From NCBI RefSeq assembly GCF_000003815.2, contig NC_049984.1, forward strand, positions 2,314,936-2,378,935: DNA of 64,000 nt, written 5' to 3'. Positions within the stretch are counted from its first letter, which is position 1; the number at the start of each line of letters is the position of its first letter. This DNA comes from Branchiostoma floridae. Its lineage: Eukaryota; Chordata; Leptocardii; Amphioxiformes; Branchiostomatidae. The position numbers and the translations under genes were made by a program. Positions 11,071-64,000 of this stretch are shown here, in pieces. Below the pieces are notes generated by a model that worked only from the letters and a program-made list of their open reading frames with translations, made no database searches and was not told where the DNA came from.

Positions 11071-11126
11071 GTAAGTACTGCACCAGGTTTTTTTATAAAC
11101 CCCTCTCACACCCTTTCCAATCCAGC

Positions 11127-11300
11127 AGGATGTGTGGTCATGGTGGCCGAAAGGTTAGCGTGTTTGGCCCACACCCCAGAGGTCCTGTGTTCGAACCCTC
11201 TAATATTCCCCGTTGGCTCTTAGTAAAGGGACTACTTAACATGACTTTCTTCACTTCGCTCAGGGAAATTGAGTACCTTACTGTGGCTAGAGACGTCTGT
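11127..11300 (+). mobile_element. tRNA-derived SINE
   Basis: There is an A-box-like GGCCGAAAGGTTAGCG segment and a B-box-like GTGTTCGAACCC at about 11187, followed by a tail with GACTTTCTTCACTTCGCTCA. Related tail sequence occurs in the SINEs near 5420 and 26900. Confidence 0.5.
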
Positions 11301-11798
11301 CGGATAAGACGTTAAACATTTTTTCAGCTTCCTACAGTAATTGGTAATTGGATCAAACCTAAAGGGAACGGATCGTCTGTAGGATTTCCAAGGGCACGGT
11401 CACCTTGAAATCATCTGCTCAGTCGCTCATAAAGATCCAACAAACAAATTGAGATATATTAGTCTCAAGAAAATAATGCCTATACCTTTGTGTCAAATTT
11501 CAACTCATTCGATGAAAAAAGAGATTGTCATAAAATCACTTGCATTACTTTTTGACTCGTAGTAATGTAGCCTTTAGATGAAACGTAACCACGGACTAAA
11601 ATATTTCTTCTTTTTTTTTCAAAGCTTTATTTCAATATGTACAACAAGAGGTACATACATCAAAGCATAAAAACAACCAACATGCGGATATAAGAAAGGT
11701 TACACAATTGGTATCGAGAGATACGTCCAGATTTTGTTGTGGGTAAAGTCCCTGAGAAGCACCATGCATAAAAAATAACTTCTATCTGGAAGCCTCTG

Positions 11799-13650: not shown

Positions 13651-14225
13651 GAGGGCGTTCAATAAGTAATGCCTCTGACCCATTTCACATAGCAGGAGAT
13701 TAATGAAACTTGGCTCAGTTATTAGTCTTTCTCTTCATAGGAACCACCCAGAGTTATGCATTTCTTCCATCGTTCGATGCAGCTCTGGACACCGTTTTTG
13801 TAGGACACCCCAGGTTGGTCCTGCAACAGATGCCTCATCAATGGCAGAAGAGGGAAGATAAGGTCTGGGAGCTGTTTCCACAGACTTCCGGCCATGTTTG
13901 AATTCAAGATGCCAGCGTTTTACAAGGTCATATGATGGGGCATCATCACTATAAGTTTCTTTCATTTCATCAAAAGTCTCCTTTGGTGTGCGTCCTTTCA
14001 AATACAAAACCCGGATCACTGCGCGACACTCACCTGGCTCCATTTCACACCTGGTCCATTTCACACCTGACTCAGTTCAAACACCAGTAAATCAGAAACC
14101 ACAATTAGATCAGAGCTCTTTTTTTCAACATAACCCATAGAGATATGAATCATTACACATGCAAAATTTCATTTAGATCAGATAACTGGAAGTGGGTCAG
14201 GGGCATTACTTATTGAACGCCCCTC
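13651..14225 (-). mobile_element. Internally deleted mariner-type element
   Basis: About 32-bp inverted termini (GAGGGCGTTCAATAAG on the left, its near-complement ending at 14225) bound 575 bp. On the minus strand, from about 14043, an N-terminal transposase segment is readable (MEPGECRAVIR start, then a helix-turn-helix region with LKGRTPKE). The catalytic core is absent. A short C-terminal piece (KCITLGGSYEEKD) follows in another frame near 13722-13830. A TA lies one base beyond the right end. This is a non-autonomous deletion derivative. Confidence 0.8.
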
Positions 14226-19408: not shown

Positions 19409-22400
19409 TCAGTGACAGTTCCTACACTCAGGATGGCACTTCTGCCCCCCCACCCTGCACCGGCACCCGCCACTGATGTCTCCTGGGCCCTGCAGGGAGA
19501 GGCACAACTTCATCATCATCATCATCATCATCATCATCTGTAATAACTACGGTCCACTCAGACCATTTGCCTGTATGTTTACAAAATTCACTTCAACAAA
19601 AACACTGCAAAATCACTCAATATTAACAATAGTACTAAATGTTAAACATGTAAAAGTAAGAAAGAAACTGTTTGATCAGACAAGTACAATACTCTTTGCT
19701 ACATCTCAATGCAATTGCAAGAAATTTGTTTGTTGGTGAAAGGTTATGGATGCTTTTTTATACTTCATTTCTTTTATTTCCTTTATTTATCTAATTTACC
19801 AGGAATAAAATCACACTCAGGCTACAGCATGTTTCAGGCAAAATCTTGGTACAACGGAGGAATCTATATCTTTTTTCTTGCTTCATTTCTTCACTCATTC
19901 TATCATTCCTTCCTTCCTTCCTTCCCAAAACCTAACCCACCCCTGGCCCCCATCTTCTGGCCTTGGTGACCCAGCAGATCTCAGTCCGGCACATCGAGCA
20001 GCGTATCCAATCACAGCCCTCCTTCTTCTGAACGATGATGTCACACTGCGGACAGTGGATCGCCTCACCCTGCCGCACCATGTTCTGTAAAAAAGGAGCA
20101 AAAATTAGAAACAATTCATACGCAACTAGATACAAATGTACTAAGTGTAGCATTGAATATGTTATGTCAATGAAGGATTGATACGCAAGGTAATAGTTAC
20201 TCAAGCAACTGGATAGGTTCTGGAAACAGGTGCCATTGAATGCCTTTCTCAGTTTGTTAGTTCAGTCACTGATGAAAAGAAGTGGATGCTACATGTACCT
20301 AAATAGTGACCATAATCTTGCATATACACGTATATATATATATGTTAACAAAATACAGCATATCCTCAACAGTTAACCACCAGAAAAAATGTTCTGTGCA
20401 AAAAAGAGCAAAAATTACAAACACTGGTGCACCTACGTTTATGAAGGTTAGACATCCAGGTAAGCAATATTCAAATACAATTCAATCTCTACAACTGGAT
20501 AAAAACGGATATTTACTTCCGGACGTTTCGAGTGACATCCATCACTCTTCTTCAGCAAAAGCTGGTGCACCTAGATACTACTGTAGGTTATATCCTTTAC
20601 ATGTTAAGGTATATGGAATACAACATGGGGTATTAAGTATCGCTCGAGGTACAGCCTGACCCACAGGAGGGCTGAGACCGAGGACGATATGGAATACTCC
20701 GCGTTTATTCTATACATATCATGCCAACCCAAAGCAAGCTTATAAAAAAAAGAAAATGTGATATTAACGGACATAAAGTCAATTTGAACGAAAGAACGAA
20801 CACCGTAAAAGTCTGGTTTCAGAGCCGTTGTTCGAATTTACAACAGCACTGCACATGAGTTCAAATCTAACTATGGAGCCCCGGGCCGTACGGTATAATA
20901 CAGACCACCGATATCGAACGCAAATATGGCACAGGTTCCGGTACTGTAGGTACTAACCTCCAGCATGGCCATGGTCTGCTGGGCTGCTTCGTCGTTGTTC
21001 GCCCGTCTCCGCAGGTCATCCTGGTACTCTCGGCACGACATGTTCTCGTGGATCGCCTTACACGTCAGGCAGTTCCTCTTGCCGCAGATTGGGCAGAAGA
21101 AGTCGTTACTCAGGTCCTCGTAGAAGCAGAACCCCCGACAGTCGGCGGTCTTGCAGTGGAAGGCGTCGCGCGCCTGCCCCTCCGCGATGGCCAGGCCGCG
21201 CTCCTGGTAGCGCTGGTACTCGTCTGGGCTCAGCAGCTGGAGGAGATGTTCAAATAAAGGTTTATTCAGTTTCAAGTTTTTGTGTACAGTAGTCAGGGAG
21301 CCAGTTCAAGATCAGCTGTGAGTAGGGATGGGTACCGGTACAGAAATTTAGGTAGTCTCCACTACTCATCTGGACTCAGCAGCTGGAGGAGATGTTCAAA
21401 TAAAGGTTTATTCTAAAAAGCTAAAGTTGCATAATACATCAGAACATGGGGGCCAACCTCCCTAATTAGAAGATGCATCGGGCCTGGCACTCATCTCCGC
21501 TTCAAAGCCCTGGGCCACACATAGGTGCAAGCTCTAGAGCAGGAGGTTAGTCCACTGTTAGCTTCCATACTCTTCCTTTTAGCAGAGACAGAAGTAATTG
21601 TATCACGCTCCTGATAGCGCTGGTACTTGTCTGGACTCAGCAGCTGGAGATAAGTTTGACTAATGGTCAGGGTTCTCACCAGGATTTTGTTTTCACAGCA
21701 AAGGGGTATAGAAGGCCAACTTTGTACAGCAACAGAGTGTTGACGATGTAACTCAAGAGTAGGGGGTCTGTCATCCTTTTCTCAGAAAATCTTAAAATTC
21801 ATGACCCTCTGTGACACTCACATAGCTATAGCTTCTTGCATTTTGAGGTAAAAATTTTGTGAAGTAAAGTTTTCTCTCTGTTACAGACTTATTCTAAAGC
21901 CAAACATTCTAAAGATTGATGAAGGGTCATATAGGGTTCTCCCCAGAAAGAAAAAAACGTACTGCATTGTACTAGTCATTTCTTTTCTTAAAATCAGCTC
22001 AGCTTGGACATTTTTCAATAGTTTTTCTTCTGAAACTGTGAGTTTATCATAAACATCTAAAACTCACCGCCCTGATCTCTCTGTCCTGCAGCATAGCAGG
22101 GCAGGAGTAGTCATCATCTACGAAGGGGCACTTCACATCGGCCTCCTCACACTGGACTATGTGCTGACGCAGACACTCCCTGTGGACGAAACAACATTAT
22201 ATAAAACACAGACACACAACCCTAATCATGTACCTTACTCCAAAACCAACCCTCATCTCACTGGATTATGTGCTCCCGAGGTACTCTCTGTAAAACATAA
22301 TATAAAGCAACATATAAAGGACAAGCAATCACACACTCGCACATGTACACTAAACACTAACCCAAACACAAGACTATGTGCTGTCTCAAAGCAAAAATAT

Positions 22401-25400
22401 GTAAAACTTCCTCTTCTTATAAGAAGGCAGGTTGTTCTGTAGCACTGTATTGCCATATGTCATTGTTTATGTTTCAGATTCACATCATCCATACTTTAGC
22501 CATTTGGAGCTTGCCGACACATCGGGGAAGCTTAGTTATTGATTTGTGATGGAAGGCTGGGAGCTTTAAAAAAAACAACCTGCAGAAGGAGTGCAGACAA
22601 TCCCTGAGCACCACCCCGTCCCCAGGTTCCACATCCATGAAGCAGATGGCGCACTCTCACACACAGACACACACACAGACACACAAACACACACTCACAC
22701 ACAGACACACTCACACACACAGACACACTCACACACACACACACACACCACACACACACACCTGCAGAATGAGTGTAGACAGTCCCTAAGCACCACACCG
22801 TCCCCCGGCTCCACATCCATGAAGCAGATGGCGCACTCTCACACACACTCACACATGCACACACACACACACACACACTCACACACAGACGCACACTCAG
22901 ACACACACACACACACACACACTCACACACAGACGCACACTCAGACACACTCACACACACAGACACACACTCAGACACACACCACACACACACCTGCAGA
23001 ATGAGTGTAGACAGTCCCTCAGCACCACACCGTCCCCCGGCTCCACATCCATGAAGCAAATGGCACACTCAACTCCAGCATGTTGGGCACACACAGACAC
23101 ACAGACACACTTACACACACGTACACACACACAAACACACACACACACACACACACACTCACACACAGACACACACACACACACACAGACGCACACTCAG
23201 ACACACACACACACACACACACACTCACACACAGACACACTCACACACACACACACACACCACACACACACCTGCAGAAGGAGTGTAGACAGTCCCTGAG
23301 CACCACCCCGTCCCCAGGCTCCACATCCATGAAGCAGATGGCACACTCAAACTCCAGCGTGTTGGGCACCAGGAACTGCTGCTCTGCCATCATCAACTCC
23401 TGCAGGTTCGCTTCCCTCCGCCGCAGCTCGGCCTGGGGAGGAACGACAATTTCGGTTTGTTCTACATACAGTCAAACCTGTATTAGTGGCCTCCTTTACA
23501 TACTGGCCACTTGGATTTTTTCCCATTGACCTAAGCAAGGAGGTTGAAAAAAGGAAAGAAGGGAAGGCCTTTCCTTTTTTCAACCCTCTTTCAACCTCCT
23601 TGACCTAAGCATTAAGAAATAGTCTATAGCGACCACCTGCCCAATGCGGCCACGGCCACACAATTTTCGGTCCCATGGATTCAGAAACACTGCCGAAGGC
23701 ACAGTGGTCAGCCATACAGCAGCAGTGTCATCACCCTGGGCTAGCTGGGTTTAATTGTTTTCTATTTTCGAAAAAATGTCCTAGTCCGGTCGAGCTTTTA
23801 TCAAGGTCTGGTCAATCAGGATTTAGCTAAATTTTTGAGGTCATGAACGGGCGATATCAATCATTTTTGCAGTAGTGGAAGAAAAGAAGGTTATTTTTTC
23901 AGTGTGTTTGTCTGTGTGTATCTCTGTAAACAGCATAATTCAAGAAGCCTTGGATGGGTCCTGATGATGTTCGGTATGTGGGTTGATAGGTGCCAGGAAA
24001 ACGAGGGTAGATACTGAAGTAAAACTTCCGGTTTTGATATCTTGAGTACTAGTTTATTTTTAACGTGATGGTAAGCAAGGGGTAATTGCTGCCTTGTCAC
24101 ACTGAGCCTTTGTAGGATCAACCAAGAACAGCCATTCATGGTCACTATTTTTATGGGTTAAGCTGCTACCTCTGATTGACGGATTGGACTATCGAACAAC
24201 TGGGTTGACAATTCAAACTGCAAAGGTTGATCCAATGGAACAGAAACAGGCAGAGTTACATGTACCATCCAACCTGTGAAATAGTATTACTTGTAGCATT
24301 ACTGACATCTTGTACAGTATTACCTACATCACATATACATACAAATGTAAGTATTGCAAAAGCAGTAACTTTTGCTTTTTCCCAGAAGATATGGCAAGGA
24401 ATGAAGTGTATTCCTTCAACATGTTTTCTTACCTACATGCATTGGTCACAATTGAACAAAAACAAGACCATCACCTACAATGTGCTGAAGCTTGGCTTTG
24501 AAAGTTTAAATTTATTTATTCAAATTAAAAGTCTATTAGATGCAGTAACTTAATCTATTTGCAACAGTGCATCAAAAAGTAAAATTTCATTTAATTCAGA
24601 TATAGATAGCTAAATGAGGGTGATGCGGAAAACACTGTGTTGTATTCTTTTCGTAGCATACCCATTCGAGAAAACAAACATTTTAATGCAAAATGTGCCA
24701 GAGCAGAAGTTGAGAGCATTTAGTGTTTTCAAACAGAAAATTTTACCAACAGTAATTCCAATATCTGAATCAAGTATTTGAATTTTCAACAGCCATGCTC
24801 ACAAAGTGTGTTTGAATTATTCTGTGTGAGTCTGTGATACAAGTAGTCCCCCATGTGATAACCCAAGTTATCACCCATTCCGGAACATTCATTTCAGATG
24901 TTATCATGGCCCACATGACATAATAGCATGTACCTTATAACAATGTCCTCTATGTAAATGTATCTTACTCTTCTTTTAAACTAATGAACATGACATACAG
25001 ATCATTTATCACTGACGGAAATGCATTGACTGAGAAATTAGATTTTAATGTAATGCTGTATAACCTTTCAATTATCGTTCTTCGATAGCACATGCTAGAG
25101 GCCATTGTTTAAACACTGTGCCTTATCCTGACTATAGGGTTGCAGTGGTAAATATTTCCAGTGGCTGTATGCATGTATACTGGACATATACGCTTCAGGC
25201 TGGAATAAGTTTGCAATCAAGCGTCAAGGTCTGTCCATTTTGAAGCAGTGTTTCCAGAATTCAATTCTACTTGCACCAGACGAATACTGTAATTCAATTC
25301 TGCTTATAACAAGTTCTTCAATCTTGTTGTCATTACAAGCTCTCTTCTTCATCTGTTTCATCATATGCAACTTCTACTACAGGTTCTGCCTGTTTCTGTG

Positions 25401-28400
25401 TACTGTCACTGGCTGAGTGAATTATCATCACATTTTAACCCTGCTTATAACAAATTCTTCAATCTTGTTGTCATTACAAGCTCTCTTCTTTGGTTGGTTA
25501 ATCATACAACTTAGAGCAACTTAGACAGCTTCTGCCTGTTTCTGTGTATAGTCACTGCCTGATCACATTTTAACCCTGCCTATTATGAATTCTTCAATCT
25601 TGTTGCCATAATTTACAAACTCTCCTCTTCGTCTGGTTCATCATATGCAACTTCTACAGGGCTGTGAGTCTGCCTGCTGGTTGTTTGCAGTCTAGCAGCA
25701 GGCCCCTGAGGCTGCCTACTGGCAGTTTGTAGTCTGGCTGCAGGCTCCTGCTCCTCCTGTCCCCACTGTAAACTGTCCTCTCCACCCAATGCTTCCTGTA
25801 TGGGGGGAGACAACAGGTTACTGTGGGGGCAGGGGCCTCAGGAGCCTGATCTGCAGACTATTTACAACAGACAACAGGTTACTGGGGGGCTGGAGCCTCG
25901 GGAGCCTGGTCTCCAGGCTATTTACATCTACAACAGGTTACTGTGGGTACGGGAGCCTCAGCAGCCTGGTCTCCAGGCTACATACATCTACAACAGGTTA
26001 CTGTGGGGGCTGGCGCCTCAGGACCCTGGTCTCCAGGCTAAATACCGGTACATTTACAATAGGTTAATGTGGGGGCAGGAGCCTCAGAAGCCTGCTGCTA
26101 GACTACCGCCAATAGATAGCCTCACAACCCTGTAGAAGTTGCATACGATGAACCTGACGAAGAGTATAGCTGAAACCTTTACTTGAGTCGTGAAGTTTAC
26201 GTGGTCTGAAGTACACAGTCAATTAGATTGGTCATCCTTTACAATGCTGAGCCTGAACCACTACAATATTATCTAAAAGTTACAAAAGTTTGCACATCAC
26301 TCACCTCCCGGTACATCTCCTCAGCTTGCTGTTCCTTCCGGAGTCGCTCCCTCTCCTCCTCGTCAGGGATGTAGTTCTCTGGTACTCGGTAATCCTCCGG
26401 CCGCGGGGCGCCACACATCTCGCACCCAGGGCGCGTGGGCTGGTTAACGAACGTACACACAGGGCACGACCATCCCAGGGCCTGCAATAGGGGTTGCAGC
26501 ATGGTTATTATGATCTAAACGTGTATTATGGTGATATTGGTTCTGTACTTGTCAAAGAGTGCAAGGAAGAATTCCACACTGGAGCATAGTACACCATAAG
26601 AGTCTATTCTTTTGGTACTGCTGTTCCCCCCTTTCCAAGCTGTAGGATGGTCCTGGCTAACATACATACACACTGAACAGGACCATCCTACTGCCTGTAA
26701 TAGGGAGGAGAGCATGGCATAGCACAACCAGAATTTGTATGACATAGCTAATCATAAAGTAAAACATTGGTTCTGCACACCGCAAAGGACCCCTACTCTT
26801 TTCGATAGGTGCTTGGTGTGAATCTCCTAAAACACGGACACTACACTTGACGTCCTATTTGAGGGAAGGCCCTTACTGAAGCTAGGTCTTCAATTCCACC
26901 TGAGTGAAGTGAGCAAATCTGTGTAAAGTGCCTTTCCTAAGGGCACGTCAGAGCTTATCATGGGACTCGAACCCAGGACCTCTGGGCTTTGAGCCAAACA
27001 CCCTACCGCTATTCTCCAACCAGGAGAGGAGCGAGCCGGTAAAAATCCCGACTACTACTCTATCTCTGGGACTCAACCTCTGCTTGGAGAATACCTGCTG
27101 CCAAATGACGAGTAGTTTGTTTCCTTCTGAAAATAGTTTCATCAGGTTGGTAGAACATAGAATATATGAGAAACAGAACTCCAGTTAGAAGCTCTGACGA
27201 AGTTGTCTGAGAGACATTGAAACATAAGCAATGTAAGTACCTGCTGGTTGTGTAAACAGAATTCTCCTATATTTGAGTAGTTTGTGTTTGTTACCTGTGC
27301 AGGAGAAGGTGCCTGAGCTGCAGCTCCCTGCTGCTGTAACTGTTGTTGTTGCTGTGGTCTGGCTGCAGCACCTTGCAGCAGAACGTGCTGCGGCTGTGCT
27401 GGCCTCGGTGGTTCCAACACTGCGTTCACGACTGCTTCTGCCTCTGCTATGCCCAACCTGGGCGGGGCTGGTGTCGCCGGGGCAACCGTTACCGGGGTAG
27501 CTGGTGACCGAGGGGGGATGCTGGATGGGCCACCTGATGAGGGAACATACATGAAGTTGATTGTATTGTATTTCAGATTTGAAAACATCCTCACTTACTT
27601 TGAACATAGTCATCAAGTTTCTTTGCCATTTCGTTCAGACTCTTGTGGTACCTAGTGGCACATACAATGTAGGGCAGCAAGTTGCCTTGCTGTTTGTAAG
27701 TGTTTCATTAATTGTTCAGACCACTTAAGTGCCTAGTGGCATGTACAATCTAAGGAAGCAAACTCCCTTGCCGTTTCGTCCGTTATGACCTCTTTAAGTA
27801 CCTAGGGGCACATACAATCTATTGCAGCAAGTTTCCATGCAGTTTTGTTCGTTCAGACCCCTGTATAGTGCCTAGTAGCACATAGGTCAGCAAGTTTCCT
27901 TCTTATTTCTCACAAAGATCCAAGATTACAGGCAGGTTGTACCTAGGGATGGTTGAAGAGCTGCCCCTCCCACTGCACCCTGGGCCACTTCCCCTCCAAC
28001 CGCCCCCTCGAGCGGCTCTAGTTCGTTACGGTCGGCACCAGCAGACACGGCGGTGAGCAGGTAAAGGTACGCAGTGTGTCCCGGCCCCTTCACACCGCAC
28101 TTTGTCAGCGTCCATTCATCCTGGCACAGCCGCTTCTGTATCACCCACCTCTGCACACTGATCGGGAACTTCAGCTTTGCCATCATCTGGGGAAACAGGC
28201 AGTTAGTGACAGGGGGTGACACAGGTTTCCTGTCACCTATGAGTCTATGACCCACCTCTGCACAGAGATTGGAAACTTTAACTCTCCAGACCTTGGAAAC
28301 AAGCAAACAGGCAGTTAGATTGCATTGCTAGAGTACATCCAAGAAAACTGCCCCAACGATGAACAGAGACGGGTACGACACAGTTTATCTGGCACCTATG

Positions 28401-28849
28401 ACCTACTCCAGACCCTAGGAACAAGATATCAGATTCGTTCATGAAGGTTAGACATTAAGGAAACAAAATCTAATGTCAATCAATTCTCTACAACTGGATA
28501 AAATTAAAGATTACTCCCGGGAAGTTCCTATGGGATGTGGAGTTACCAAACATGAATTACATATGAGTGACATTTGCCCCTGTTTCTGAGTTGATTCAAA
28601 CAAGGAAATAAACCTTCTTAAATAGAAAGTTATGCCTGCTCGTGGCAAGACTCACCATCCTTTTTAGTGTGTATATCGTAGTGGATGGGTGGACGTCCAT
28701 CATGTATTGTCCCCCACACATGTCCTTGTCTTCTATGGACACTCTTAACCTGGGGATGAAAGAAATAAGTAAGAAATGGAAGACAACCTGAAGAGATGGT
28801 TAACCATTGGACTAATTGCTAGATATGTAGTGATTTTCTCATAGTCTTA

Positions 28850-28883
<34 letters not shown>

Positions 28884-31800
28884 TGTTTGTGTGTGCGCGT
28901 ATGTCTTCTTGTGACTTTGACTAAACAGTATGAGAACCAAGAGAATAAATTGCTGTGGCCTAACAGATTAGAACCACTTGCTGGATAGAGAAATCGACAG
29001 TTGTGGTGCTTATTCAAAACTTAACTTGTATGTCGAGGAATTTAGTTTTCCAGTTAAGAAGAGACTGACCTAAACTTAGGCCCAGTTTTGTTCCTAACTG
29101 CTACGTCCAGATCCGGTTTGAGGCTGGCGAGCTGGGAAGCAAGCTCCATGGCGAAGGACTTGTCTCCTACTTCTACAGCCTTCATCAGGGATACAGCCAG
29201 CGCCTCTGGGGACGGAAACAGACAAGACAGATTTCATGATACAGGGCTCAAAATACCATCAGCATATGCAGGTTAGTGCAGGTATAATTGGAGCTGTGCA
29301 GATATTTCTGGTGTCTACCTGCACCTAACCTGCACTGGTCCATATGTGCTGGGATTTATACATCAATGTCATATGATGTAGGTTCATGTTGACTATTATC
29401 AGCTGCATTGACTGTTACCACCTATAAAGTATAAAAGAAAAAATTGCAATGGTCCCTGATTGACCCTAAACAATTTTTGTATGATCCTAAATTCAGAGTG
29501 GTGCAGGTAATGTTTGTCTGGTGCAGTAATTTTCAATGCTACCCAATAAAAAAGTACTTCGAGCCCTGTGACAGGATAACAAAGTTTGTTTGCGAACAGG
29601 TACAAAATCACCTGCCTACATTTTGGCTACCTTCCTTGGGGCAATACTGACTAGTCCTACTTCACACTGTATCTAGGCATCACTGGTTGTGTGTAACAAC
29701 AAGCTTCGTTATTTAGTTATTCACCAACTTTAGGACACTTTTCATAGAGTAAAACAACAAATCTACAGTTGGAATGATCTGTGCTCACAGATTCTTAAAT
29801 GGCGTGTCATCTGTAAGTTTTTCGGGCCTGGAATAGAAACACATAACTCACCTGCATCTTCTACTTCAGGTGATCTACCTGGTGTGGGCAGGGTTAAGGA
29901 CTTTCCCTTTTCTGTTAGGATGCACAAAAAAGAACAGAAATTAGTAATTTGGGGGCAAAAACTACAATACAGAATAATGATAGAATAAAATATATTTTGA
30001 CACTACCTGTTAATGTTAATAGTTATTGCTATCTGTTTGCTAATTTTTCATAATAAGCAAACTTTTTCAGTTCCACATGTAATATGTAATTCCAGTTGAA
30101 AAGGCATGATTATCATCAATCCCTTAATTCAAAAACTCTATGTGCTGTGACTAATAAGATACACTATTCCCCATCCCCGAGGCATTGTCAAAACAGTGTG
30201 GTCTAAATAACTACATGGCACTTAATACTTATAGTATCGTAGAACATATACTAGTACTAGTAGCCTTGCCTTTTGTACAGAGATAATTATAGGATTAGTG
30301 ACAGAGACCAAAGTCATCATTTATTCAGAGCTCTTAGCTCTGAGTAACCGAATATATTAAACATATCAATTTCTATAATGATAGATTAATGGTAGCATAG
30401 CTCTATCATTTTTGTTCATCCCACTGTTCACAATCAATACTACAAAGAAATGACAGTCTTCGCTTTAAGTTTTTCGTGTAATACATGTAGTATAACTACT
30501 TCTGAAAAGTAGTGGTATAACTACTGTATTTAGGCCATGCTGGAAAGAACTCTCACATAAAGATGATCATTAAAATAATCAACAATATACACAAAGAATA
30601 GCATTTCTAACCACCACAAGTTAACTGTCTGAAATTATCCAACGATTCTACACTTTTTCTGCTTTCAGGTACACCTGACAATGTGGCAGCAAAAACTTTG
30701 TAAGCACATAATGTTAGCTATACTTTGGCTCTTTTGCTTATGCTGATGTTGCCATTGTAAAGATATTCTAGAAACACAAATTGTACGGACTGTAAACTAT
30801 ATTTACCAGTAGTATCTAGATCCTTCATATAAGAAAATTACTATCATCTGTCTCGCAGGACATGAATTCTTAGTCAAAAAGTTGAGTGATTTATTCACAA
30901 AATGCACAACTTTACCATTACATATGTTAATACATGTATCGTACCTGTTTTATACTTAAGGTAACAAATATATCATATGTGTTTATCCACCCACCTGCCC
31001 ATGCTGGCTTGGTGCCTATCCTGCCCTTCTGTTGTGAAGCTGCTGCACTGCCGCCACCTGTGAAATTCAAAGCCCCCATTGGTGTTACAGGCCAGAAAAA
31101 CTGCAAACTTCTATAGTAGTAAACACACCACTTGTGCAGATGCCGTTACAGAACAAAGTGTAACATGATAGCCGTGGGATGAATAGGGGTCAAAGTTGAC
31201 ATGCCTACAGTTAGACTTGAACAAAGGTCAAAATGCAAAGTTTAAAAAAAAGCATAAGGGATAACATATAGTTTTGTACTAAGTTGAGAAAAAACAATGT
31301 ACAAGACTAGCAAGAAAATGGAATTATTTTTTCTTTGGGTGATTCCAATTTGTATTAAACACAGGGAATGAAAGCATGGGATTGTTCCATTTTTAAAACA
31401 TAGGGAAAACCTGTGGGGAATAGAAACCTGTAATGATAAACCTTATAATCATGCCAGACCCTTTACCAAATGGTTGTGAAACTGAAATGTTGGTAGCCAA
31501 CATGAATTTCAGCAGTTGCTTCCTTGAGTGTTATGACCTTCACAATGACTGTGGTGGATTCTACTAGAGGCTCTAGACTTTAATCTTAAAACTAGCAAAA
31601 GTGGGAGTGATAGCCTCTATATACACCGTCCCAGCTAATGAAAATATACACAGTCAAACCTGTACAATTTTGCAAGTGACCACCTCATATATTAAAAGGA
31701 CCATGTAGCCAATGTGACCACTTTTTGTGATAACTGTTCCCATTAACACAATCATTACGAATCCTGTCTATGGTCTAGAGCAACCACCTGTCTACTAGTA

Positions 31801-32900
31801 CATAGACCAGACTTTCTCAGTCCCCTGAGTGGCCTTAGCTTCTTGGGAAGGTTATACCATGTACATGTCCCTACCTGCTCTCTTGATCTCGTGTAGTAAG
31901 TTAGAGATAACAGTGTGCATGATGTTGGCATCCTTGTTGGACAGGAACTTAGCAGTGTACATGGTGCCATCGTGGTAGGTGAGTTCTATCAGTGTGGGGT
32001 CCTTCTTGTTGTAGGAGAGCCCGTGCAGAGGCAGGCTGAATATCATCTGTAACATGGGGAGATGGGGAAGAATTTAAGGCTAAAGTCTAGCTGTTAACTA
32101 ACTAGTGCCAAAAGACAGTAAAAGCAACATTGGCTGCTTAAACTAAGTTTCAGCCACATTCCTGAAAAATGCAACAAATAGTAACAGCAATTAACTTCAA
32201 AATGTATATTCTTAATTTCTGAGTTAAATTTACAAACTGTGGATCCATCCAAGTCATCTGTGTGAAACCGTCAAATGTTATCACATATAGTATCAGTGCT
32301 CGAAATACTTTTTTCAGCCAGCCAGTCAAAAGCCAGGTTGCGACATCAACATTTCAGGTCGCCTCGCTCACACATTATTACTTTCTTCTTTAATTTAGCT
32401 ACATATCCATGATCTTCTCTTCCAGCAAGGAGCTTTTAGCAACGTTGAAAAGCTCCTTGCTTTCAGTTACATGTAACTACTTATGTTTTATATTATCTTT
32501 AAGAAATAAATACTAAAGCTTATGCACATGGGTGGAGTGTTCCAACTGCAAAATTTTAGGTTGTGCAGTGTGCAACCTGAGTTTGAGTAGAGTCGCTTCA
32601 GCCGGGTAGGAGTTGAGCCCACCAAAATGTGGTTGCATTTACAAGTGTGTATTTTGAGCACTGACTTAAGGTATCTAACAGCTCTGCAGCGGCCTGGCAC
32701 CTTACCTGTCCGCGCCCACCTGGCCTGTCTTCACGAATGACCAGGTTAAACTGTCCGCTGTGTTCTCGGTAGATGCACAGCTGACTCGTCGCAGCTTGAT
32801 CCTTGCCTGCGCCGAGAACATTCGTCCATTGCGATTCAGGTGAAGCATCTTTTTGGTACACCTGGGCACTGGCAAAAGCCAGTAAGGTTCCTTGTGCCAT
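19409..32900 (-). CDS. RBCK1: Composite SHARPIN/HOIL-1 protein (LUBAC component, RING-IBR-RING E3)
   Basis: Exons: 32706-32900, 31875-32046, 30995-31057, 29852-29911, 29070-29205, 28656-28749, 27943-28186, 27295-27533, 26305-26481, 23272-23432, 22068-22179, 20958-21236, 19941-20084, 19409-19489. Phases agree throughout: 2157 nt, 718 residues. Residues 1-122 match the SHARPIN PH-like dimerisation domain (GTLLAF start, FNLVI, LHGLSYN). About 164-208 match the LUBAC-tethering motif and about 209-285 the UBL (VQRWVI, AYLYLL). A Pro/Gln/Ala linker (322-401) precedes the NZF (402-424; GWSCPVCTF...GCEMC). RING1 begins at Cys490 and the IBR covers 552-644. RING2 has the TEIC catalytic cysteine (Cys681), and the protein ends in NCH, like HOIL-1. 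Human HOIL-1 (510 aa) has no PH-like domain; human SHARPIN (387 aa) has no RBR. In vertebrates these proteins partner HOIP to build linear ubiquitin chains in NF-kB signalling, and HOIL-1 also makes ester-linked ubiquitin. Several exons have partial tandem copies nearby. Confidence 0.93.
20522..20556 (-). ncRNA. Hammerhead-ribozyme-like motif in an interspersed repeat
   Basis: On the minus strand CTGAAGA is followed by a GAGTG/CACTC hairpin and then GAAACGTC, the order of a hammerhead core (CUGANGA, stem II, GAAA). One A is unpaired at the base of stem II, and stems I and III are not established. It lies in a repeat, about 20440-20560, containing GAAGGTTAGACATCCAGGTA. Related copies lie near 2563, 14610, 28441 and 54128. 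Confidence 0.35.
21360..21660 (-). repeat. Two partial copies of the IBR exon 5' edge
   Basis: Segments at about 21367-21400 and 21602-21655 repeat the acceptor and first codons of exon 20958-21236 ([13 protein letters not shown] in the real exon; [13 protein letters not shown] in the second copy). Both are truncated, so they are exon-edge duplicates rather than usable exons. Confidence 0.75.
22580..23250 (-). repeat. Three extra copies of the RING1 exon 3' part, joined by (CA)n tracts
   Basis: Copies at about 22580-22654, 22762-22838 and 22994-23089 repeat the coding segment of exon 23272-23432 ([20 protein letters not shown]) with its GT donor. Long CA repeats separate them. Most differences from the real exon are synonymous. 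Only 23272-23432 has the upstream codons and an acceptor that keeps phase. Long His/Thr or Cys/Val ORFs in both directions come from the CA tract. Confidence 0.85.
23465..23735. mobile_element. MITE-like repeat with a strong internal hairpin
   Basis: An ACAGTCAAACCTGTATTAG-type end is shared with about 31650-31790. An inverted pair at 23535-23603 (AAGGAGGTTGAAAAAAGG against CCTTTTTTCAACC and a second TTTCAACCTCCTT) would form a long hairpin. Non-coding, in an intron of the RBCK1/SHARPIN-like gene. Confidence 0.5.
23750..25320. other. Large intron segment, no gene seen
   Basis: This AT-rich intron sequence between the NZF and RING1 exons of the RBCK1/SHARPIN-like gene shows no exon with supported splice sites and no recognisable domain on either strand. 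Confidence 0.5.
25335..25560 (-). repeat. Two tandem copies of the tail of candidate exon 25613-25795
   Basis: Blocks at about 25335-25400 and 25478-25550 repeat the exon tail and following intron. The first keeps an open tail ([13 protein letters not shown] then TAA) in the same frame; most differences from the 25613 copy are synonymous. The second is decayed. Confidence 0.6.
25613..25795 (-). CDS. Candidate alternative last exon of the RBCK1/SHARPIN-like gene (no RBR)
   Basis: An acceptor (CCATACAG) at 25796-25798 opens a 60-codon frame ending in TAA. It enters in phase 0, exactly the exit phase of the NZF exon 26305-26481. Splicing NZF to this exon would give about 520 residues (PH-like, LTM, UBL, NZF, acidic tail) with no RING-IBR-RING, the architecture of vertebrate SHARPIN. 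The peptide has two internal repeats ([22 protein letters not shown]) and an acidic end ([13 protein letters not shown]). The tail is duplicated nearby, including an inverted copy, so it may instead belong to a local repeat. I saw no close poly(A) signal. Confidence 0.4.
   Translation of the reverse strand, partial: EALGGEDSLQWGQEEQEPAARLQTASRQPQGPAARLQTTSRQTHSPVEVAYDEPDEEESL
25800..26170 (+). repeat. About 61-bp minisatellite ending in an inverted copy of the candidate exon
   Basis: Five units of about 61 bp share AACAGGTTACTGTGGGGGC and end near 26100. They resemble the candidate exon at 25613-25795 but in the opposite orientation. At about 26123-26165 an inverted copy of its tail follows ([12 protein letters not shown] then TGA, + strand). 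The + ORF here has a roughly 20-residue periodicity and is probably not a gene. Confidence 0.65.
26650..26715 (-). repeat. Partial copy of the NZF exon 5' edge
   Basis: A truncated duplicate of the acceptor side of exon 26305-26481 reads [13 protein letters not shown] on the minus strand, then diverges. It lacks the second zinc-binding cysteine pair, so it cannot be a functional NZF. Confidence 0.7.
26780..27010 (-). mobile_element. tRNA-derived SINE (reverse orientation)
   Basis: On the minus strand there is a B-box-like GGTTCGAGTCCC followed by a tail with AGGAAAGGCACTTTACACAG, shared with the SINE at 5330-5560. It abuts a fold-back MITE at 27012-27090. Confidence 0.55.
28245..28310 (-). 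repeat. Degenerate copy of the UBL exon 5' edge
   Basis: The segment repeats the acceptor and first codons of exon 27943-28186 (CACCTCTGCACA on the + strand) with several changes. It lies about 100 bp upstream of the real exon in gene orientation and is truncated. Confidence 0.55.
28853..28890. repeat. (GT)n microsatellite
   Basis: A simple GT dinucleotide tract in the intron between the LTM and first UBL exons. Confidence 0.9.
31640..31795. mobile_element. MITE-like repeat (ACAGTCAAACCTGT family)
   Basis: The segment shares ACAGTCAAACCTGTA and a GACCACCT segment with 23465-23735 and ends near GAGCAACCACCTGTCTAC. Non-coding, in an intron. Confidence 0.45.
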
Positions 32901-33115
32901 GGTTTACAAACCAGCTGCAGCATGCAGGTGACTCCTCATCCAACTTGGGGAGGGGGGTGATGCTTCAATACAAAGTCTCTTGACACAATATCTACTGCAC
33001 CTCAAGTTCCAGTACACCACCAGGAAGAGTACACTGTCCTTCCTGAATTTGTGATAGTCATAGTTTCCATTTCCTCATCTGTAGGAGAGCTTTGGTGTTT
33101 TCCAGACTGTTCTCT

Positions 33116-33125
33116 GGGACTTTCC
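33116..33125 (+). promoter_or_regulatory. NF-kB site, Ig-kappa type (GGGACTTTCC)
   Basis: An exact match to the classic Ig-kappa enhancer kB decamer, about 215 bp upstream of the RBCK1/SHARPIN-like start codon and 15 bp from a second kB palindrome. Function is inferred from sequence only. Confidence 0.6.
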
Positions 33126-33139
33126 GGTGCTATTACAAA

Positions 33140-33150
33140 GGGGATTCCCC
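33140..33150. promoter_or_regulatory. NF-kB site, palindromic H-2K type (GGGGATTCCCC)
   Basis: A perfect 11-bp kB palindrome about 240 bp upstream of the RBCK1/SHARPIN-like start codon. The same core with identical flanks (AGGGGATTCCCCTT) lies upstream of CYLD at 56818-56831. Confidence 0.65.
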
Positions 33151-34167
33151 TTCAGCAGCCACTTGCCTGGTTTTCCCCTTTCAGAAATAAAGGTATTGTA
33201 AACATCAGCAGGCGCAGCAATACCAAAAATTATTTATCCCTTATTCAGAGCCTCACACATATAGATTATTATTTTCATTTCAAAACGAGGGAATGTAGAA
33301 TACTTAACAAGAACAACATAAAGTAGTTAGCTTGCAAGTCAAAGGTCAGAGTTTGCTCACCCCACCTTAGGAAATGACATCATTAACTCGTGACGTAAAT
33401 GGAAAATGTAGGCGTACACAACTTTTTCTTACTTTCAAGGATTTCAGTGATATCCTTACAAACTTGTATCAGTTTCACGTCGATAGAACTTTCGTAAAAC
33501 CTTGTCAAAGTCGCACTGTCCACAGAAAGCGAAAGTCACGCTGCGATCTTTTCAAACTTGTTTGTTTGTTTCCCATGATTCTCTGCGCACACCGAACGCA
33601 AAGCATCCTGGGATTTCTCAAATTCTCTCCTGCGTTGTTTGACCGAAGGATAGAGCTTTTTTCTCCTCTGAGTTTTGTGTCTTTTTCGCGATTTAAGGCG
33701 AAACAGGGCCAACATTTCCCACCCGACAGTTTCCCGAGGACCTTGTGCGGCCATTCCGACTGTCTGGACCCGTCTGGGCGGTCACTAGGTGCAATTTTGG
33801 GCAGTTTTTTTCCGCAGAGAGCGGGCGGGCGCTATGTTGATGGCGGCAGCTGATCTTACTGACAGCTCGCAGGACAGTTCTTCAATGTTTTCCTCCTCCG
33901 TCTGCAGAATAGCCTCGCGAATAAGTCTGAAGGAAACACGACATAAAGGACAGAGAGCCCTTCCGAGCAGTTTTAGCGGGAAGAACTTCAGCAGTTGCGA
34001 GCCGTGTTCGAGTAGCTCCTGCTAAACTGTAAACCAAACACAGGAACTCAAGTTTGACTTTGACTGTCTGAAGCAGAAAAGGGCGGTCCGGATTTCAAGA
34101 CTACTGCTCCGTCTTACAGGAACTCTTATTTTGCGTGTCTGCTGGTTGAATCGGACGCCAAGACGTC

Positions 34168-37100
34168 ATGAAGCTTCTGGAGAACTCTTTCTTTGAGGGG
34201 TTGAAATGGGTTTTGTGTGTGGAGATGGGGGATAGGGGGATTTTTGGAAGGGGGGGGAAAATTTGTGAGAGGGGGTTTTTTTTTTTTCTTGCGTTAGAGC
34301 TAGGGGGGGGGGGGGGGGGGGGGAAACAAACGACCTGGCAAATAAATGTGGCCCAGAAAGCACCTTTGTGGTGAAAAATGTGTAGACAGACACTATGATA
34401 TGTATAGGAGCATAATGTCGGTGAAAATACTGTTTATTGTAAGAAACTACAGAAATATAGTCCAATTTTGTTTGTATACTTGTTCTAGTCAACGGTTAAT
34501 GGTTAGGGAAACTTGGGCTTGGTTTTGATGCTAGTTGTCTAACCAGTTTCCAGTGGGTTGCACAGGGGGAATCTGCTAAGGGTAATCTTCTGTGAAATCT
34601 TACTTTACATGTTTCCTGACGCTGTGAGGGTGTTTTGTTGCTGTGTGACGTGAGCTCACTTGTATGGGATCGGATGACAGAGCGTTATTTATAGCACAGC
34701 AAAATAAGTCATATATTTTCCCCACCACTTTGTTAAACTGCTGTAAAACATGTATTTTTGATCACACACCAAACATACATAGGGAATTTCTGGACGTAAA
34801 AAGAGAAGAAAGGCTTTAAGTTAGCTGACAAATGGTGATGTCATTGTTCCCCTGTAAAGCCCAGACAATGCAGGGGTTTCAGGTTACCCGTTTGCATTAA
34901 CTGCGTACCTGGTCAGGTGGGCTGACCATAGATTAACACTTAATCAGGAGCACTAAGTAGTGCAGACTATGATGTAGACGGTCCAAAGGTTGTGATCATT
35001 CAGATCTTTTGGTCACGTTTACTGTTATGTAGATCAGCTAATATTGGTGTAGACTTGACTTGTCTTGAGGGAAAGGACAGACACTTCTTTTTGCTCTAGT
35101 TACACTGTAGAATGTTGGCCCTGCCATGATAGGATTAGGTGCATAGTTTCTGAGTTAAAGTAACTTAAACCTCTGTAGTGGTACAGGCTATGAGTATGAC
35201 ATGAGTGTAACTGATCAAAAAGCAAGAATCATGCCTTTTTAGCATTATACTAACTTATACTTTATACATTGTATGATCACAAAGTGATTCCCAGCATAGC
35301 CATTACAAAGACTGCTGTGCCTTTTGATTTTATGAGCTGGGTCCATGTCAAGGGAGCACCATATACTCAAAAGTTTTCTTAAAACTAATTTTTTTAATTT
35401 GTAGCCTTCAGAAGTGCTGTTTCTAGCCTTTTGAAGACCAAATTTTATTAAACAAAGCCACTTTTTTTACCTTGAATACAAGAACAGCAGAAAAATCCCC
35501 TAAGCTGGTCGAGAGCAAAGTCCCTAAGTCACATTGTCTGGGATACAAACACTGCAAGGGGCTCCATACACTCAGCTGTTCTGTCAAGAACCCCATATTT
35601 GCATGAATCCTTTCCTTACGTCGTCCTATGTTTCACCCAGACTGGAGAGTTACTCCTGCAAGATAGCTGTGGAGCTTGTGGTCCTTAAAAAGCTCCATAA
35701 AAAACATGTTAAGTAGTGCACAACTGCTATGTGAACTTGACTGGTATCAACCCTTCCTCACATAATGCCCTTTTCCCCCAGACTGGAGAGTTACTCCTGC
35801 AAGATGGCGGGGAACGACAAGCGGCTGTTCAAGCTGCTAAGTCAGGAGGGTGGGGGAGGACCCAACGAGCTTCAGGCGCTCTCCCCGCCCCAGACCATGT
35901 CCGTCAGCCCCAGCCGCGCCTACAGTCGCAGTACCAGCGACGAGGGGGAGGGGCCGCTCTGCGACACATGCAGCAGGAAAACCATCTTCTACCTGATCGG
36001 CACTCTCAACACGTCATTCGCACCTGACTATGACTTCAGGTAGAGTAGATTTTTCCTTTGAGTAAAGACTACAGTAGAGTAGAGTATAGTAAAGTAGAGT
36101 ATAGACTACAGTCGCAGTACCAGCGACGAGGGGGAGGGGCCGCTCTGCGACACATGCAGCAGGAAAACCATCTTCTATCTGATCGGCACTCTCAACACGT
36201 CCTTCGCACCTGACTATGACTTCAGGTAGAGTTGTCTTTTCCTTCAAGTAGAGTACAGACTACAGTAGAATAGAGTATAGACCACAGTAAAGTATAGACC
36301 TGTAGATCTGGTACAGGCCAGGTAGGAAAATCATCTTCTGCCTGATCGGCATGCTCAACACATCCTTCACAGCTGACTATGATTTCAGGTGGGCAAGAGA
36401 GAAGTTTACATATTGTTTTTTCCTTCAAGTAAAGTAAAGTACAGTAGAGTAGGGTAGATCAGGTATAGGCCAGGCAGAAAAATCATCTTTTACCTGATCT
36501 GCACACGCAACATGCACCTGACTACCACTGGAAAGAATTTCCCTGATACAATGAACTTATAAACAATGTGCATAGCATCTGTCATCTCTGTCACAACCAG
36601 TGGATAATAGTTTAAGAGCTAAACTGGATTGATAGTACTTTCACCTTTCTTTGCAGATGGGGCACAGGTACCTGTAAAAATGCCTGTCCAATTCTGCTTT
36701 TAATATGTATATGTAGATGGTATTTAGAGCCCTGTATCTTCCAATCTAACTAACAATATTACCATTTCCCCCTGTAGTGATGCGAAGAGCCATGAGTTCA
36801 GCCGTGAGCCCAGCCTGCAGTGGGTGACCAACACCATCGACACCCAGCTGTCCATGGGTCTGGGGGACAAGTACACAGTGCTGCGGCCCCAGCTCTGGGC
36901 TACCATAGACAAGGAGATCACACTCGCAGACTGTGACATATACAGGTAAGCATTAACACTATAGGAGATCACACTCGCAGACTGTGACATATACAGGTAA
37001 GTCCACACCAATTTGATTTTGGGTTCTCAATTGGAACAAGTCATGATTCAAGTCCAGTTTGTCAAGGTCTGACCTTCGGTTTTAGAAATACTTCCTGTAC

Positions 37101-39286
37101 ATAAATCAGTTATCATTACATATAATAAAATTGCATATTGGCATAAATTTTACATGTAATTGAAAAAGATATATACATGCAAAATTATGTATGGTCAGCA
37201 CTGCAGTTAAATTTTGCAAGCTACTCTATTTCCCTCCCAACGGCCAAAAATTACTGATTGCAATATTAAAAGGATTCGCAGCAGATACGAGCCAAGAACA
37301 AAAACAAACAAACAATTTTTGATCAAACAGTAGCTGATCCCCAACTGTACTGACATGAGGTGGTCCCACTGTCCCCTCCACCATCCCTGGTATGTGGGAC
37401 ATGTTGTGTCCCTCCTGACTGCACTATTTCTAACCTGCCACTGATGGGTTTAGCGGTCATGTCCGTGCTGCGTCTCATGTTACACATGGTTGTCATGGTG
37501 TTGCTAGGGCAGAGACAGGGAGGCTGATCAGCAGGTTTGTCTTCCGGATCCGTCCTTCCGTCCTAGGGTGGAAATTGCTTGTTGGGACGGAAGAAAATTT
37601 CACTCAGTCAGTCCAAAAACCTGAACTTCTTGACATAACATTAATGATAATGTATTTTCCTAGGCATAAAATGATACACATAGCTTTGCAAATTAACAAG
37701 ATGAGCTCCTAAACAATGAGAGGGACAGAAAAAATTTTAAGCTGGAAACAGCCCTGGTGTTCAGTTCAATCTTATATTATGAGGAGGTACTACTGAACCT
37801 CTAAATCTTTACCCCCATTGCAAAGCTGGATTGGTTGGATTTGTTTTGGTCAAAAAGGCTGGAGGTTTGCCATAGCGGACAGCCCCGAGTGCATGCATGT
37901 AAAACACTAGTATGTTAAAGCGCTATTTATGTGTTGATTTCTACCATGTACTGACTGTTGTGTTGCCCCCCTCCCCCAGCTACAACCCTGACCTGACCTC
38001 TGACCCGTACGGAGAGGAGGGGTGCGTGTGGTCCTTCAACTTCTTCTTCTACAACAAGAAGCTGAAGAGGATCGTCTTCTTCACCTGCAGGGCCGCCAGG
38101 TGAGACGGAGACAATTTTTTAATAGTTTTTTAATGGGTTTGTTCATAGCAAGGCCATTTGACCACTTTAACTTATAGCCATTGAAGTTAGGTACCTTTCA
38201 CTTCTACTTTATTTGTTTTACTGGGGTTATACACTCAGATCAAAGCTTGACCTGTTTTATTAGTGATATATTATTCAAAGAGATAGCGGTGAACATTGCT
38301 TTTGAACTTGAAGGCATGAAGATTGCATGCAGGAGGTAAACAGTTGTAGTCTAGAGGGTTCTATAGTTTGGCAGTCTGAGGAAAGAAATTTGCTGCAGAA
38401 AAACTTTGAGACTAGTAATTGAACTGTAGAAAACAGACTTTAAACCACTACAAGACAAGTCAGTCTTGCAAAATGAAGGAATGTGGGTGTCTCAGCAATA
38501 CTAAGCAATGCATGTTGTTCCCTTTAGTCTGTCTGCCCAGCCAAGTGTTACGGACTCAGGCCTGGGCCATGACCTGAGTTTGTTTGTTTGTTTGTTTGTC
38601 ATAACTGTGTGTGTTTCCCCCCAGCTTGTCAGCCCAGCCCAGCGTGACAGACTCCGGCCTGGGCCATGACCTGAGTTTTGATGAGGGGGATGAAGAGGAC
38701 ATGATGGAGTGTCGTGGGGGCAGCCAGGAGGTCGAAAGGTCAGTACAGGATTGAGAATCGTTCCCCTGAAATGTATAGACGTGGGAGGATTTTCCTCCTG
38801 TTAAAATGTGTAAAAATGTTACCATGAAAAAGTTGTTGAAGTTCTGGACAAAGCTTTAGATCTTGAGTTGAGTTTGAGTACGTTTATTGTGCTATTAGCT
38901 TATTGAGCTAATCTTCCAGGGCTCATAAAAACACACAGTATATACAAGTAGATAGACAGATACCATAAGATACACTTAACTGATCAGATGTACATACAAA
39001 TACATACATTAAGTCTAAAAGTCATGAGGTCAGAGGGTTATATACACTGAAAACATTATGAGCCTTAGAAATGGTCTTCTTAAACAAGTGTTTATCAGAG
39101 ACAATCTTTAAATTTCTGGGTAGCAGATTCCACAGTTTAATTGATCTGTAATTCTTAACTTAGACTTAAAATATTTTGATTCAATAAAGACTTTAGCAAC
39201 TTGTGCTCTATGATTACTATTTAGGTTATTTACGTTTATGTGTTGTTTATGTTGGCAGGTGGTCCCCTGAAAATGACATGGACTGA
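34168..39286 (+). CDS. MAF1: MAF1, repressor of RNA polymerase III transcription
   Basis: Exons: 34168-34250, 35782-36039, 36778-36945, 37980-38099, 38625-38738, 39259-39286. The total is 771 nt, or 256 residues, the length of human MAF1. Recognisable segments are MKLLENS at the start, [64 protein letters not shown] and [15 protein letters not shown], followed by an acidic tail ending in ENDMD. MAF1 binds and inhibits Pol III downstream of TORC1. All junctions are GT-AG except exon 1, where AG at 34249-34250 is followed by a G run instead of GT; the split Arg codon still fits. Exon 1 is less conserved and lies in a stretch without C, so sequence error is likely. Exons 2, 3 and 5 have partial tandem copies. 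It is head-to-head with the RBCK1/SHARPIN-like gene and convergent with CYLD. Confidence 0.93.
35625..35680 (+). repeat. Partial upstream copy of MAF1 exon 2
   Basis: The acceptor and first codons of exon 2 (ACTGGAGAGTTACTCCTGCA) appear about 140 bp before the real exon, then diverge. No matching donor follows. Confidence 0.7.
36100..36535 (+). repeat. Decaying tandem copies of the MAF1 exon 2 3' end
   Basis: Three copies of the exon 2 end follow the real exon. The one at about 36105-36226 is nearly exact, with its GTAGAG donor. The one at about 36324-36391 is diverged but still reads through to a GT donor. The one at about 36470-36527 is degraded. Short AGTAGAGTATAG-type runs link them. Confidence 0.8.
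36963..37001 (+). repeat. Exact copy of the MAF1 exon 3 3' edge and donor
   Basis: The last codons of exon 3 and the GTAAG donor (the block ending TGTGACATATACAG|GTAAG) are repeated without change about 51 bp downstream. Confidence 0.85.
38525..38600 (+). repeat. Copy of the MAF1 exon 5 5' edge
   Basis: An acceptor-like TTTAG followed by a diverged copy of the first exon 5 codons lies about 100 bp upstream of the real exon and runs into a (TTTG)n tract. Several changes are synonymous (for example ACA to ACG, TCC to TCA). Confidence 0.75.
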
Positions 39287-56498: not shown

Positions 56499-56613
56499 GG
56501 TTTGTCGCTGAACCCTCTAAACTACAAACCTTGAACGTTTTCAGCAGCAAACTTTCGATCATCCCAATCCCACGAACCAAGATGGCGTCTGGAAATCACC
56601 GAACGACCTGTGA

Positions 56614-63690: not shown

Positions 63691-64000
63691 CTGGAGCAGG
63701 ATACAAACATCACATTGTTAGAACAGTTAGCCAAGGCAATACTGGTGAAGTAATCATTACTAATACAGCTTGAGATAGACAGAAGTTCAATAGTCAAGTT
63801 AATTATTTCCTCTGCGCACACTGACAGCGTTCTGTCTACCGCCGACAGTCCAGCAGCTAATGCTAAACCAAACATTGAACTAAAAAAAAAATAGCACAAA
63901 AAAAGACTTTGAAGCCTCTCAAGTCCCCAGATATGTCTTTTATTGTCTTGGGCATGTTCTTTGAATGCTTCAAAAAGCAGATTTTCTGCTAGTAATTTTC
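63691..64000 (-). other. PCIF1 intron
   Basis: I see no further exon between the acceptor at 63691-63693 and the window edge. The open minus frame that continues upstream of the exon has no PCIF1 similarity that I recognise. Confidence 0.5.

Follow-up and report, generated by a model that had tools for sequence, protein, structure and literature searches.

LUBAC regulates both NF-kB signalling and cell death. Inflammatory and glycogen-storage disease results when SHARPIN or HOIL-1, which vertebrates make as separate immune-signalling proteins, is lost. SHARPIN ends shortly after its NZF. According to the available part of a structural study, the LUBAC-tethering motifs (LTMs) of vertebrate HOIL-1 and SHARPIN fold jointly as a single domain that has a pseudo-two-fold axis, and each of the two HOIP UBAs is occupied by one UBL (PMC6044281). 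For human HOIL-1, the accessible text of PMC9853177 describes H510 as needed for activity and stacked on W462, and mutation of H510 abolishes sugar ubiquitylation. According to the portion at hand of a 2022 paper, Aplysia has a single HOIL1 gene that also yields a Sharpin-like isoform without the TRIAD, and it lacks a separate Sharpin gene (PMC9334734). In the literature examined, no explanation was found for why LUBAC has two related accessory subunits.

The window analysed here is a stretch of 64,000 nucleotides of Branchiostoma floridae (C6:2314936-2378935), from an amphioxus genome of 513,431,437 bases in 431 contigs. The minus-strand gene rebuilt at 19409-32900 comprises 14 exons with a total of 2157 nt, encoding 718 residues and a stop (Table 1), with GT at 13 of 13 donors, AG at 13 of 13 acceptors and a frame open through every junction; the joining of exons 1-2 to exons 3-14 is a model from splice sites and reading frame. 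The start ATG at 32900 stands in an ACCATGG context and, by eye, follows an in-frame TAA that lies two codons before it, and the three N runs of the window (at 10215, 13551 and 18193) all fall outside the gene. Pfam families and PDB chains give the domain order Sharpin_PH, LTM, UBL (ubiquitin), NZF and RING-IBR-RING (RBR). An earlier note on this DNA had read a 14-exon model in frame for 718 residues and had placed all of these domains in it; the splice sites and open frame bear out the first point, and Pfam, chains of solved structures and the alignment to 4emo described below agree with the second. A GT-repeat intron contains, at 22576-23073 (-), two or more additional partial copies of the exon 10 3' half.

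Table 1. Positions of the SHARPIN-HOIL-1 gene, its neighbour and the HOIP exons (window positions unless a contig is named).
Feature	Position	Strand	Basis
Exon 1: start codon and first half of SHARPIN-type PH-like domain (residues 1-65), predicted	32706..32900	-	gene model, Pfam Sharpin_PH 33-121, genome search
Exon 2: second half of PH-like domain (residues 66-122), predicted	31875..32046	-	model, Pfam, genome search, alignment
Exon 3: linker	30995..31057	-	model; recovered by whole-protein genome search
Exon 4: linker	29852..29911	-	model; recovered by whole-protein genome search
Exon 5: LUBAC-tethering motif (Pfam residues 166-203 = 29087-29200)	29070..29205	-	Pfam, alignment
Exon 6: first part of UBL	28656..28749	-	model, PDB-chain comparison
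Exon 7: remaining UBL (UBL residues ~208-288)	27943..28186	-	model, PDB-chain comparison, mouse SHARPIN query
Exon 8: proline/glutamine-rich linker	27295..27533	-	model
Exon 9: NZF zinc finger (residues 402-432) and HOIL-1-type helix	26305..26481	-	model, Pfam, PDB-chain comparison
Exon 10: first part of RING1	23272..23432	-	model, Pfam, HOIL-1 RBR query
Exon 11: remaining RING1	22068..22179	-	model, PDB-chain comparison, HOIL-1 RBR query
Exon 12: IBR	20958..21236	-	model, PDB-chain comparison, HOIL-1 RBR query
Exon 13: RING2 with catalytic cysteine C668 (codon 20013-20015)	19941..20084	-	model, alignment, HOIL-1 RBR query
Exon 14: C-terminal zinc cluster, terminal histidine H718 (HOIL-1 H510), stop	19409..19489	-	model, alignment, HOIL-1 RBR query
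Interval between the two start codons, 1267 bases; candidate shared two-way promoter	32901..34167		CpG values
MAF1 gene, head-to-head with the SHARPIN-HOIL-1 gene	34168..38751	+	three inner exon stretches match Pfam Maf1
HOIP (RNF31) tandem-UBA exons, same contig as the SHARPIN-HOIL-1 gene	C6:12326342-12329614		profile and chain alignment

The PH-like domain is the weakest domain call, with Sharpin_PH matching residues 33-121 at E 2.9e-6 and 27.5 bits against a Pfam cut-off of 27. Exons 1-2 might therefore be read as an unrelated N-terminus on a plain invertebrate HOIL-1 gene; the score is half a bit above the cut-off, and phmmer with the 123-residue PH part against the PDB returned five sequences at E up to 10, with no SHARPIN chain among them. 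Against this reading, alignment of the PH part to SHARPIN PH chain 4emo scored 61, about 8 standard deviations over the shuffle mean (25.3 +/- 4.3), and none of 2000 shuffles reached 61. In addition, at an E limit of 1 residues 1-122 matched no Pfam family except Sharpin_PH, the PH-then-LTM order is that of SHARPIN, and the gene has MAF1 as its neighbour, as human SHARPIN is presumed to have. An unrelated N-terminus is thus very improbable, and the amphioxus protein is predicted to begin, as SHARPIN does, with a PH-like domain. In the genome, the PH peptide has only two matches at E up to 10, which are exons 1 and 2; the profile PF16764 gave no match in the genome and none in 14 controls, probably because an intron splits the domain.

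Downstream of the PH-like domain, the LTM, UBL and NZF of SHARPIN are all present. The NZF (residues 405-429) scored 31.7 bits against a Pfam cut-off of 27, while the LTM (residues 166-203; 26.1 bits, cut-off 27.5) and the ubiquitin match of the UBL (16.3 bits, cut-off 25.4) fell under theirs. The LTM and UBL calls were accepted because residues 160-288 significantly match the HOIL-1 LTM-UBL chain 5y3t_A (E 2.1e-18, 69.2 bits) and residues 163-287 the SHARPIN LTM-UBL chain 5y3t_C (E 4.9e-13, 51.5 bits). In the alignment, the HOIL-1 LTM positions L15, A18, V19 and A31 are all four kept, as L170, A173, V174 and A186; the accessible text of PMC6044281 reports L15, V19 and A31 as tested interface residues and A18 as a disease position.

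The catalytic end is that of HOIL-1. The IBR scored 26.1 bits against a Pfam cut-off of 24.3, and two RING models also pass their cut-offs. Residues 440-718 match the HOIL-1 RBR chain 8eaz_A at E 5.5e-112, with 158 of 279 positions identical (56.6%) in an ungapped alignment and all 25 cysteines of 8eaz_A kept. HOIL-1 C460 (alanine in 8eaz_A) corresponds to C668, W462 to W670 and H510 to H718, the last residue, and so the HOIL-1 arrangement of LTM, UBL, NZF and RBR, with these three residues and the C-terminal zinc cysteines, is present. Since the catalytic residues are kept, HOIL-1-type ester ligase is the likely activity of the amphioxus protein, judging from its sequence.

The PH and RBR exons might also be used mostly in different transcripts of one locus, with few or no full-length molecules. 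A TRIAD-less isoform is reported for Aplysia in the available part of PMC9334734, and an open stretch of 60 in-frame codons at 25613-25795 (-), which has both an AG acceptor and a stop, might serve after exon 9 as the end of a PH-LTM-UBL-NZF protein; the codon score of the stretch, 0.34, is above the maximum (0.24) of 749 overlapping intron windows. However, this stretch lies in inverted and tandem repeats, its other two frames score 0.27 and 0.27, so that composition may explain the score, and it has no Pfam match. Because of its position within repeats it was set aside as a SHARPIN-like alternative last exon, and a locus working mainly through separate short products is considered unlikely.

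To find related loci, the genome was searched exon by exon and the best candidates were scored, a procedure which a diverged copy can escape. At an E limit of 10 the whole protein gave 31 matches, with all 30 of the 30 first-look candidates scored; 16 of these matches lie at the 19409-32900 locus (14 of 14 exons and two partial exon 10 copies) and 15 elsewhere, the best of the latter at E 1.4e-4 with 30% identity over residues 552-684. With the HOIL-1 RBR, 18 matches were obtained at E up to 1, including five exons and an exon 10 copy at the locus, and the best match away from it had E 0.0036. Mouse SHARPIN LTM-UBL recovered exon 7 (E 5.9e-5) and then one place elsewhere (E 0.67), and missed exons 5 and 6 of the same gene; a diverged second SHARPIN could therefore go undetected. 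For all four queries (whole protein, PH part, SHARPIN LTM-UBL and HOIL-1 RBR) the best matches were at this locus, and none of the four brought up a further SHARPIN-like or HOIL-1-like locus in the genome. The earlier note had named a second amphioxus locus with a separate SHARPIN as one of two things that would overturn its view, and none emerged at this limited sensitivity. Judged by these sequence searches, SHARPIN and HOIL-1 share this gene as their single-copy counterpart.

The position of the gene points to SHARPIN. Its head-to-head neighbour is MAF1, whose inner exon stretches match Pfam Maf1 at 59-69 bits, one of them also matching MAF1 chain 3nr5; exon 1 and the last exon were both read by eye, and for exon 1 Pfam gave no match. 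Exon 1 (34168-34330, +) is odd by eye, entering long G/C homopolymers with no clear donor, which is possibly a sequence error, and a duplicated tail of MAF1 exon 2 lies at 36098-36226 (+), with more fragments, seen by eye, up to ~36.5 kb. A genome search with the Maf1 family gave four matches with E no higher than 0.01, all at this locus and one of them the duplicated exon tail, so that no MAF1 was detected anywhere else. In human, SHARPIN and MAF1 are taken to stand head-to-head as well. Given the MAF1 neighbour and the RBR, the gene at SHARPIN's position therefore carries HOIL-1's catalytic end.

CpG observed/expected in the interval between the two genes was 0.86-1.10 in four 300-base windows starting at 33301-33901 and 0.06-0.50 in the other three, compared with 0.56 for the whole window. 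These values being its sole basis, the claim of a shared promoter at 32901-34167 was set aside. Among the first 20 of 126 open-licence PubMed Central papers on head-to-head genes, no mention of SHARPIN or MAF1 was found.

Wider synteny was also compared. SLC52A3 presumably lies at 20p13, close to RBCK1, and PSMF1 is assumed to be at 20p13 as well. According to the available text of PMC9741223, human SHARPIN and MAF1 both fall within a 34-gene run at 8q24.3 to which GPAA1 and CYC1 also belong; in amphioxus, GPAA1 and CYC1 are ~7 kb apart near 14.18 Mb of C6, the contig of the SHARPIN-HOIL-1 gene. SLC52A2 is located at 8q24.3 in the accessible part of PMC7566486, and the SLC52 family has genome matches only on C6. 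Four of the five neighbour families tested (MAF1, GPAA1, CYC1 and SLC52) are thus on C6, and the PSMF1 family is on C17. The latter was set aside as a marker of the second paralogon as it falls on C17; the C17 match may not be PSMF1, because the Pfam family also covers FBXO7.

The next minus-strand gene in the window is CYLD (43688-56516, -; stop read by eye), in which three open stretches match CAP-Gly, one passing the Pfam cut-off and also matching CYLD chain 1whl, and a USP stretch matches CYLD chain 2vhf at E 5e-21. CYLD is a deubiquitinase for linear and K63 chains; thus a linear-ubiquitin writer subunit and an eraser flank MAF1. Elsewhere in the window, a C-type lectin domain gene (10734-11312, +), a putative Mariner-like transposase N-terminus (13738-14076, -; by eye) and, at the window edge, a PCIF1-like gene with a PCIF1_WW domain stretch (63525-63998, -) were observed.

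With the mouse 5y3t chains, LTM-UBL identity was 44.1% for HOIL-1 and SHARPIN, 39.7% for amphioxus and HOIL-1 and 35.2% for amphioxus and SHARPIN, an order that comes from three sequences with neither outgroup nor rate correction and proves nothing alone. These identities are compatible with a split of HOIL-1 and SHARPIN after the amphioxus lineage had left. Distances of this outgroup-less kind are also compatible with a lineage-specific fusion, in which a SHARPIN gene beside MAF1 gained the HOIL-1 catalytic half through recombination in amphioxus and a separate HOIL-1 was then lost; MAF1 marks SHARPIN's position, yet the LTM-UBL scores higher against HOIL-1 (69.2 bits) than against SHARPIN (51.5 bits). 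Such a history requires a fusion plus a loss, with the crossover within the shared domains. In LTM-UBL, the resemblance between HOIL-1 and SHARPIN exceeds that of either to the amphioxus protein, and Aplysia is also reported with one gene for both (PMC9334734, available part). A fusion in the amphioxus lineage is therefore regarded as quite unlikely.

Most likely, a full-length LUBAC accessory subunit is encoded at this locus by a single gene that keeps the state before SHARPIN and HOIL-1 were split; we give this reading a probability of about 0.7. The proposal of the earlier note, an undivided ancestor from which SHARPIN lost the RBR and HOIL-1 the PH-like domain, gains support from the lack of a detected second locus, the head-to-head MAF1 and the LTM-UBL identities. 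Its ancestry part is supported, at the level of sequence, by synteny, LTM-UBL distance and one paper. The whole-genome duplications of vertebrates would have produced two copies of the ancestral gene; the one next to MAF1 would have lost its RBR and become SHARPIN, and the other copy would have lost the PH-like domain and the MAF1 neighbour and become HOIL-1.

For the HOIP partner, the HOIP UBA family gave one genome place over its cut-off, on C6 (2 of 14 prokaryote controls rang, none over the cut-off). Two exon stretches there, manually joined, have 130 of 131 residues aligned to residues 18-147 of RNF31 chain 5y3t_B. The OTULIN family PF16218 gave no match in the genome and none in 14 controls, from which nothing follows. 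Two UBA sites and a single accessory gene are most simply reconciled by a homodimer, and we infer an amphioxus LUBAC of HOIP and a homodimer of the PH-LTM-UBL-NZF-RBR protein. In this complex, the UBL would dock on the HOIP UBAs, and the LTMs of two protein copies would join them in a true homodimer, placing one UBL on each UBA. The NZF would bind linear ubiquitin made by HOIP and help to switch on the RBR, the RBR would add ubiquitin by oxyester bonds and so cap or tune chains, and the PH-like domain may serve as a protein-binding or dimerising arm. Complementary loss would later have turned the homodimer into an obligate heterodimer. That the ancestral chordate LUBAC was encoded by two genes, for HOIP and a symmetric PH-LTM-UBL-NZF-RBR homodimer, and became the three-subunit vertebrate LUBAC by duplication and complementary loss, is held at slightly better than even odds.

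An undivided gene at SHARPIN's position offers an answer to the question of the two related accessory subunits, namely duplication and complementary loss of a homodimer. If this is true, the LTM would homodimerise, one protein would replace both vertebrate subunits, and PH and ester-ligase functions would be coupled in cis; the SHARPIN PH arm and the HOIL-1 oxyester ligase, which have been studied separately, would have begun in one molecule.

Among known systems, Drosophila has LUBEL, a HOIP orthologue, in an invertebrate linear-ubiquitin system, and unlike amphioxus it is reported, in the available text, to be without HOIL-1L and SHARPIN (PMC5090701). Aplysia californica LOC101863809 is, like the amphioxus gene, one gene for both HOIL1 and SHARPIN; its description differs in giving a TRIAD-less isoform and, in the part of the article at hand, neither states a PH-like domain and RBR in one protein nor proposes an ancestor (PMC9334734). 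The earlier note knew of no published description of the amphioxus architecture. This stands for the PH-to-RBR chain, in that neither this architecture nor an undivided-ancestor proposal was found in the sampled part of the open-licence PubMed Central literature, and not for the one-gene arrangement, which the Aplysia case has partly published (PMC9334734); the MAF1 synteny and the homodimer proposal were likewise not found in print within that sample.

SHARPIN (4emo, 5x0w, 5y3t chain C) shares with the amphioxus protein the order PH-like, LTM, UBL and NZF. A head-to-head MAF1 neighbour is also common to the amphioxus gene and, as taken here, human SHARPIN. SHARPIN has no RBR, whereas the amphioxus protein has a complete one. 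HOIL-1/RBCK1 (8eaz, 7yui, 8bvl, 5y3t chain A) shares the LTM, UBL, NZF and RBR, the last with the 56.6% identity given above. It differs in having no PH-like domain and an N-terminal LTM (residues 5-45 in mouse, according to the available text of PMC6044281), whereas in the amphioxus protein ~160 residues, including the predicted PH-like domain, precede the LTM.
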